NCBI GenBank assembly: GCA_039033415.1
Contig: JBCCCR010000032.1
Span: 1-64,000 of the forward strand
DNA: 64,000 nt
Reading direction: 5' to 3'
Origin: Pseudomonadota bacterium
Lineage (GTDB): Bacteria > Pseudomonadota > Gammaproteobacteria > Xanthomonadales > SZUA-38
Positions within the stretch are counted from its first letter, which is position 1, and each line of letters opens with the position of its first letter. The notes beneath the pieces are model-generated. The model was not told where the DNA came from and searched no databases. It saw only the letters and a program-made list of their open reading frames with translations. The position numbers were made by a program, and so were the translations under genes. Shown in pieces: positions 27,852-31,410 of the stretch.

Positions 27852-28496
27852 TCAAACGCTGCTGTTTTCTAAGATACCGTGGCGAATCGCCAGATGGGTC
27901 AGCTCGACGTCATTCTTAACGGTGAGCTTCTCGTAGATCCGATACTTGTAGGTGCTGACCGTTTTTGGACTTAGCGCCAGCGACTCAGCGATCCCGCTCA
28001 CCTCGATCCCCTGGATGAGCATCATCATGACCTCCATTTCCCGGCTGGACAGGTCGTCGAACGGCGACTTGTCGGCCCCCGGCAGCAGCGACAGCGCCAG
28101 ACGCTGCGCAATGTCTTTGCCGATGTATCGGGTGTCGCGATGGACCGACCGGATGGCGTTGACGAGTTCCTCGGCCGCGCACCCCTTGCTCAGGTATCCG
28201 GAAGCTCCAGCGTCGAGGAGATGCGTCGGAAACGGCGCTTCGGAATGCACGGTAAGAATGATGACTTTGCATTCTGGAGACGATCGGGCGATGCGTCGGG
28301 TCGCTTCAAGACCACCCAAGCCTGGCATATTGACGTCCATCAGCACCACGTCAGGCTTGTGCTCGCGCACCAGGCGGAGCGCTTCTTCGCCGGTTCCTGC
28401 CTCTCCGACAATCTCCATGCCGGCCTGTTTCTCAATAATATGAGCAACGCCGGTGCGCACGAGATCGTGGTCGTCTACCAGTAACAGTCGTATCAC
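27852..28496 (-). CDS. uvrY: UvrY/GacA-type response regulator
   Basis: A 214-residue NarL/FixJ-family regulator. The receiver domain (1-120) has the acidic pair in LLVDDHD, the phosphoacceptor Asp about 54 in VVLMDVNMPG and Lys in SGYLSKG. The C-terminal LuxR-type HTH (about 145-210) reads LSSREMEVMMMLIQGIEVSGIAE, then LSPKTVSTYKYRIYEKL. This matches UvrY/GacA/VarA, partner of the BarA/GacS sensor, which activates CsrB-type sRNAs. The usual downstream uvrC is absent, and the gene converges on rne. No csrB-like RNA was recognised here. Confidence 0.88.
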   Translation of the reverse strand: MIRLLLVDDHDLVRTGVAHIIEKQAGMEIVGEAGTGEEALRLVREHKPDVVLMDVNMPGLGGLEATRRIARSSPECKVIILTVHSEAPFPTHLLDAGASGYLSKGCAAEELVNAIRSVHRDTRYIGKDIAQRLALSLLPGADKSPFDDLSSREMEVMMMLIQGIEVSGIAESLALSPKTVSTYKYRIYEKLTVKNDVELTHLAIRHGILENSSV

Positions 28497-28671
28497 AGCT
28501 CGCCTCCAATTCGAACAGCATCTTATCTCAGAACGCGGAATGGGAGCGAGGAATCAATCCCTTTGCAATCCACCTTACCCAGGCAGGTCAGAAGACGGCA
28601 TTCGCCTTCTAAGATTTCAGCGACAAGGCGGGACACCGGGCTCAGGATTTTGTATCACTCGGCGCCTGTGC

Positions 28672-28743
28672 GGAGGAGTGGCAGAGCGGTTGAATGCACT
28701 GGTCTTGAAAACCAGCAGAGGTGAAAGCCTCTCGGGGGTTCGA
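28672..28743 (+). pseudogene. broken tRNA-Ser(UGA) copy lacking its normal 3' end
   Basis: The first 72 bases are identical to the intact tRNA-Ser at 29028: acceptor 5' strand GGAGGAG, D arm, anticodon TGA (28706-28708), variable arm, and the T-loop start GGGGGTTCGA. After TTCGA the sequence changes to two palindromic repeats, so the 3' T-stem and acceptor strand are missing. At 28913, directly after the repeats, ATCCCTCC resumes, matching the missing T-arm 3' half, but then lacks the second CTCC. The simplest reading is a tRNA gene interrupted in the T-loop. Confidence 0.8.
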
Positions 28744-28828
28744 CAAACTTCCGCAAGGAAGTTTGGACGCCGAAGCGCAGCGCAGGCGCCCCGCAGGGGT
28801 GAGCAAACGATACTTCGTTTGCGAATCA
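28744..28828 (+). repeat. palindromic repeat, copy 1 (85 bp)
   Basis: It starts with hairpin CAAACTTCC-GCAA-GGAAGTTTG (28744-28765). A 64-bp segment GGACGCC...GAATCA (28765-28828) follows, which contains GGCGCCCCGCAGGGG and a second hairpin GCAAACGA-TACT-TCGTTTGC (28803-28822). It is nearly identical to the next copy. It has no coding sequence or transposase and does not match an IS end that I know. Confidence 0.75.
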
Positions 28829-28912
28829 CTAAGTTGCGCTAGCAACTTGGACGCCTGAGCGCAGCGCAGGCGCCCCGTAGGGGTGAGCAAACGATACTTC
28901 GTTTGCGAATCA
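28829..28912 (+). repeat. palindromic repeat, copy 2 (84 bp)
   Basis: The same layout as copy 1: hairpin AAGTTGC-GCTA-GCAACTT (28831-28848), then the 64-bp segment 28849-28912 with hairpin GCAAACGA-TACT-TCGTTTGC (28887-28906). The 64-bp parts differ at only three or so positions. The first hairpin differs in sequence from copy 1 but remains perfectly paired. Confidence 0.75.
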
Positions 28913-29027
28913 ATCCCTCCGCGATCAAGCAGCGTGCACAATACCTTCAACGGTGCGAAACAGCCTAAGAATTACCCCAAAGGGCGGGACACCAGCCTCA
29001 GGATTTTGTATCATTCGGCGCCTGCGC

Positions 29028-29117
29028 GGAGGAGTGGCAGAGCGGTTGAATGCACTGGTCTTGAAAACCAGCAGAGGTGAAAGCCTCTCGGGGGTTCGAA
29101 TCCCTCCTCCTCCGCCA
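29028..29117 (+). tRNA. tRNA-Ser(UGA), intact
   Basis: A 90-base tRNA gene with encoded CCA (29115-29117). Acceptor GGAGGAG pairs with CTCCTCC; the anticodon arm CTGGT-CTTGAAA-ACCAG gives anticodon TGA (29062-29064), reading UCA. The long variable arm (CAGAGGTGAAAGCCTCTC) is typical of serine tRNAs. The T arm is GGGGG-TTCGAAT-CCCTC with one G-U pair, and the discriminator is G. It ends 10 bp before the convergent kinase gene stop. The candidate -10 for both copies is in TTTTGTATCA, 12 to 25 bp upstream. Confidence 0.97.
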
Positions 29118-29127
29118 CTCTTGATCC

Positions 29128-31410
<2,283 letters not shown>

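Follow-up and report, generated by a model that had tools for sequence, protein, structure and literature searches.

The window, that is, the whole stretch of DNA analyzed (64,000 nucleotides), carries two copies of a tRNA-Ser(UGA) gene on its plus strand. The downstream copy is intact (29028–29117; tRNA-Ser UGA by ARAGORN) and is the sole intact copy found in the genome. The upstream copy is broken: it spans 28672–28743, is identical to positions 1–72 of the intact gene (72/72) and ends in the T-loop bases TTCGA. No complete tRNA is reported at 28672–28743 by ARAGORN, nor by Rfam at gathering score. Directly 3' of the GGTTCGA of the broken copy lie 169 bp (28744–28912) consisting of two tandem plus-strand units: unit 1 (28744–28828, 85 bp) and unit 2 (28829–28912, 84 bp), with a common 66-bp core that is 95% identical and a start-to-start spacing of 84. 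The 3' strand of the T-loop and T-arm then resumes as ATCCCTCC (28913–28920, plus strand). This is the arrangement given by the original prediction, with a normal tRNA up to TTCGA at 28743, 169 bp of repeats and ATCCCTCC from 28913, and it is borne out by direct reading. The loss of one CTCC unit from the acceptor strand, also proposed there, is better described differently: ATCCCTCC passes directly into spacer and the remainder of the acceptor strand is missing at the broken copy. The flanking genes, both on the minus strand, resemble by sequence a LuxR-type response regulator (27852–28496) and a serine/threonine protein kinase (29128–31410).

Both tRNA copies are preceded by a putative promoter, followed by the GC-rich TCGGCGCC. 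For the intact copy this is GGGACA-17-TATCAT at 28986–29014 (plus strand; 9/12, where shuffles expect 0.2) and for the broken copy it is a copy of that stretch, GGGACA-17-TATCAC at 28630–28658 (plus strand), read as promoter-like from the letters. The promoter regions are identical at 40 of 44 positions. Farther upstream the two copies agree at just 35/76, with the 356-bp spacing kept on both sides. The same spacing separates two occurrences of GAATCAATCCCT, which joins the 3' end of an element to the start of the T-arm 3' strand: one at 28907–28918 and an identical one on the plus strand at 28551–28562, before the broken copy. The upstream occurrence at this spacing marks the locus as an old tandem array, in which a previous unit survives as a relic. 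Neither this relic nor the kinship of the units with tRNA-operon repeats of the rtT/AaHKsRNA22 type had been noticed in the original prediction.

Unit 1 is divided into H1 (28744–28765), GA, H2 (28768–28788), H3 (28789–28799), TGA, H4 (28803–28822) and GAATCA, all on the plus strand. The general anatomy of the element is YGA-[H1]-GA-[H2]-[H3]-YGA-[H4]-GA-RTMA, in which the first YGA comes from the tRNA loop and the GA after H1 is sometimes AA. Folding of the 169-bp stretch, both units together, gives -88.1 kcal/mol versus -57.2 kcal/mol in dinucleotide shuffles (z -7.6).

Exact and near-exact DNA searches end at the genus plus one divergent copy and, given this short reach, a covariance model search was required. 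The model, R1, was built from 16 units, none from E. coli. As unit 1 and 15 other units built R1, their scores are partly circular, including the 74.5 bits of unit 1; unit 2 is matched at 28827–28916 with 65 bits. Beyond the true units, the best match in the window is 12.9 bits. With a cut-off of E<=0.01, R1 has matches in 178 of the 369 gammaproteobacterial genomes sampled, about half, and with E<=1e-4 in 44 of 150 Pseudomonadota, while 91 kb of Y1-transposase loci yield a single match at E<=1, a strong one. Uniqueness to this locus, which would have spoken against a mobile repeat, is thus refuted: the unit is also present elsewhere in the genome, in relatives, in other Gammaproteobacteria and in other Pseudomonadota. 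An sX4 match of the window stretch was set aside as mainly tRNA-Ser similarity, as were plasmid BLAST matches that look like plain tRNA-Ser.

Among the better-scoring matches, which were used for the position counts and form no unbiased census, 97 of 132 are no more than 500 bp away from a tRNA gene, every one of the 97 on the tRNA strand. The element is downstream of the tRNA in 73 of these, mostly within a T-arm fragment preceded by an inverted tRNA piece, and in the other 24 the tRNA is downstream of the element or overlaps it. At most tRNA-borne units the T-arm 3' strand resumes with ATCC, as it does in the window. The break point of the broken copy could be placed in 15 cases, those whose left flank aligns with an intact tRNA of that locus: eight are in the T-loop, six in the D-loop, one in the anticodon loop and none in a stem. 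Exact placement in tRNA-gene loops, in the orientation of the tRNA, is shown for very many genomes, and the E. coli tyrT repeats belong to the family. Since many other tRNA genes are split at TTCGA^ATCC or in another loop, the earlier view of an insertion that split the T-loop is supported, and the copies at other TTCGA sites that had been named as its proof of mobility exist in many genomes. At two loci (L011 and L051), the T-arm 3' strand that comes after the element is succeeded by an inverted copy of itself (ATCCTGTC-CCCC-GACAGGAT and CTGTCC-GGAA-GGACAG).

The strict strand bias would also be expected of a structured regulatory RNA of the RtT type, which would be under selection on the tRNA transcript and, having arisen once, would have spread between tRNA loci by duplication and gene conversion and not by insertion. 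Consistent with this, a stem that resembles a tRNA minihelix, closed on the acceptor 3' strand, is formed by some of the downstream units. In addition, RtT RNAs of E. coli and Pasteurellaceae are reported to be expressed and to adjoin tRNA genes (PMC4986893), and the tandem GA pair of RtT, which has covariation support (PMC7657543), resembles the YGA-H-GA motif observed here. Set against these points, units occur in three different tRNA loops and outside tRNA operons altogether.

The stems themselves bear on the same question. H1, H2 and H4 differ in sequence between units yet remain complementary, so the stems co-vary: the paired fractions are 0.92, 0.81 and 0.88, values somewhat raised by fitting the stem ends to maximize pairs, versus 0.53, 0.36 and 0.43 when the arms are shuffled between sequences. 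An RNA kept by its fold is expected to show an excess of G.U pairs and no clear excess is seen in the element stems, where G.U is scarcely above A.C (16 versus 13), unlike the tRNA control (30 versus 1). That G.U is nearly as rare as A.C favors maintenance of the stems as DNA-level palindromes and counts against the regulatory RNA, which on balance is unlikely.

The apical loops are strand-specific: GGA is present in 86 of 122 H1 loops and 71 of 106 H4 loops, whereas TCC is present in 3 and 0, respectively. GGA in the H1 and H4 loops would suit a decoy RNA that binds CsrA/RsmA, and one unit has a weak match to rsmX. Against such a decoy, the window units, other units of genomes G000 and G001 and the E. 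coli units are without GGA in these loops even though their genomes have CsrA and, conversely, one genome (G841) has 23 copies and no detectable csrA. On these two grounds the decoy was rejected as a general function, and as an account of the window units it is very improbable. As a separate observation, csrA lies within about 0.6 kb of units in G001 (contig C52), G523 (C30) and G407 (C114), beside tRNA-Ser(GCT) in the first two.

A comparison comes from a sister genome of the same genus, G001. Here the upstream flank is the same, relic GAATCAATCCCT included, and behind it lies just one tRNA-Ser(UGA), intact and free of the element. The right flank resumes only after about 10 kb of other DNA, which closes with a short repeat of the 3' end of the tRNA (L152, C8:19400-31400). 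The sister sequence is like copy A (the first copy) of the window at the left and like copy B (the second) near the promoter, and with this mixed resemblance both loss of one copy in the sister and gain of one here are possible. The relic kept in the sister makes loss there as likely as gain in the window genome. As to the empty-site comparison suggested earlier, the sister does have one intact gene without the element, although with the relic, and no clean pre-insertion site was found. The locus without the element in the sister speaks for the reading as an inserted element and against a regulatory RNA kept by selection. In the same sister genome, tRNA-Ser(GGA) has the arrangement of the window, with a broken copy, two units and an intact copy, and related units of both genomes sit in T-arm fragments of other tRNAs.

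Another reading makes the units scars left by integrative islands recombining with tRNA genes. Islands do occur in related tRNA-Ser genes: about 10 kb after tRNA-Ser(UGA) in the sister and about 60 kb in tRNA-Ser(GGA) of G000. Each of these regions has a repeat of the tRNA 3' end at its terminus, and hairpin units were not seen at the ends; furthermore, the element, which has its own conserved fold, occurs in D- and anticodon loops as well. This origin is thus hardly credible and, for the window element, a tRNA-integrated island was rejected, as 169 bp is too short for an integrase gene and folds in the conserved way. The larger region resembles an integrated island, with about 60 kb between tRNA-Ser(GGA) and its 3'-end repeat (contig C15 of G000, ~15.9–75.4 kb; L110, L107).

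Copies dispersed outside tRNA genes exist and some lie within the loop of another hairpin. Many dispersed copies have longer flanks in common (G738, G661, G643 and G770), so that larger repeats, and not the bare element, may be what moves. One genome (G770; L197–L209) has more than 20 near-identical units spread across it within longer common palindromic repeats. The suggestion that the units are MITE-like or REP-like is partly supported: dispersed copies exist, but no transposase is tied to the element. One candidate is a Y1 (HUH) transposase of the IS200/IS605 or RAYT kind, for which the units would be a non-autonomous element with two same-strand terminal hairpins, a short YGA target and no target duplication. 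H1 and H4 are same-strand hairpins in a common YGA-stem-GA frame, often with the same GGA loop, and the target would be a GA in loops; frame and target may be those of an IS200/IS605 or RAYT/REP element. Y1 proteins are present in 20 of 20 element-rich genomes versus 9 of 18 element-free ones, two hand-picked sets with different genome sizes. RAYT genes usually have their REPs as flanks. Here, despite the co-presence, no physical link is seen: a unit is nearby (within about 1.5 kb) at just one of 30 Y1 loci, and among these 30 no transposase gene bordered by units was found. Mobilization by such an enzyme is accordingly improbable, although less so than either the decoy or the island scar.

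Breaks that fall only in loops, together with dispersed copies of which some are in hairpin loops, agree with a palindromic element whose point of entry is a GA in a hairpin loop. The reading we favor, with modest confidence, is that the window holds two tandem, non-coding, multi-hairpin units of an RtT-like superfamily, and that these are a non-autonomous palindromic DNA element of this kind. The element would spread as DNA, probably as single-stranded hairpins. Insertion would be tolerated in the window because an intact tRNA-Ser(UGA) copy remains downstream; where the target is a single-copy tRNA gene, survival of the element would depend on a spare copy. Once in place, the element would be carried in the tRNA transcript and probably released by tRNA processing, as is reported for E. 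coli rtT RNA. Units may then multiply by tandem duplication, and gene conversion may keep the tRNA and part of the promoter identical. All these facts also leave room for an RNA role that the element took on once inserted, as has been suggested for rtT, and this is the main rival. More tentatively, and with somewhat less than even confidence, the family as a whole may be a widespread bacterial mobile palindrome that recognizes folded hairpin loops and not just a sequence, with the T-, D- and anticodon loops of tRNA genes as its main target and the E. coli rtT repeats as its fossils.

In this light, the E. coli tyrosine tRNA repeats are a single instance of a family that about half of the sampled gammaproteobacterial genomes carry and whose preferred address is the loops of tRNA genes. 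With so wide a family and so specific an address, its origin, whether mobile DNA or regulatory RNA, becomes testable by comparing close strains. There is also a warning for annotators: tRNA fragments such as these are no tRNA genes.

To our knowledge, the long-known 178-bp repeats that follow the tyrosine tRNA genes of E. coli have had no clear origin or role. R1 finds all four of the tyrTV repeats (rtT/RttR, RF00391) with E values of 7e-6 to 9e-4 and nothing else in that 5-kb stretch. By eye, the E. coli repeat reads GGTTCGA, four hairpins, GAGTA, ATCC and a tRNA 3' end. The Rfam RtT model, which scores 133–137 bits on the tyrTV repeats, also picks up units that R1 finds in other genomes, at tRNA-Tyr and tRNA-Gln (L081, 63 bits; L073, 44.5 bits). 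In the window stretch it has no match at E<=5, and hence none above its gathering threshold, so the window unit is treated as a divergent relative, which by Rfam's rule is no RtT. AaHKsRNA22 (Aggregatibacter sRNA 22, RF02902) aligns over its full length, positions 1–101, to the window unit (28735–28838) and to related units, with differing loop sequences and scores below its gathering score of 39.8 (the window unit reaches 22.2 bits, the best of the units scanned in this genome 30.6). In other Gammaproteobacteria, most of its matches fall in tRNA loops. As R1 recovers the tyrTV repeats and AaHKsRNA22 aligns end to end, the window units are a divergent member of an RtT-like superfamily. RtT RNAs have been reported to resemble repeats that precede several enterobacterial genes (PMC2965389). 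Among the papers searched, none was found that unites these repeats as tRNA-loop insertions.

The window units and RtT are alike in sitting at GGTTCGA^ATCC of a tRNA-derived T-arm, in a tRNA operon and on the tRNA strand, in the order H1-H2-H3-H4 and in a similar end (GAGTA in E. coli, GAATCA in the window). They differ in that the E. coli units follow tRNA genes or lie between them and have a CCA-like end and an inverted arm of the tRNA, whereas the window has two tandem units after a broken 5' tRNA copy and upstream of the intact gene. Like REP/BIME sequences, RAYT-mobilized palindromes and IS200/IS605-derived MITEs, the element is a short palindrome without coding sequence and has, in some genomes, dispersed copies; strand-specific hairpins at the two ends and the lack of a target duplication may be further resemblances. 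It differs from all of these in its target, which is the tRNA loop.
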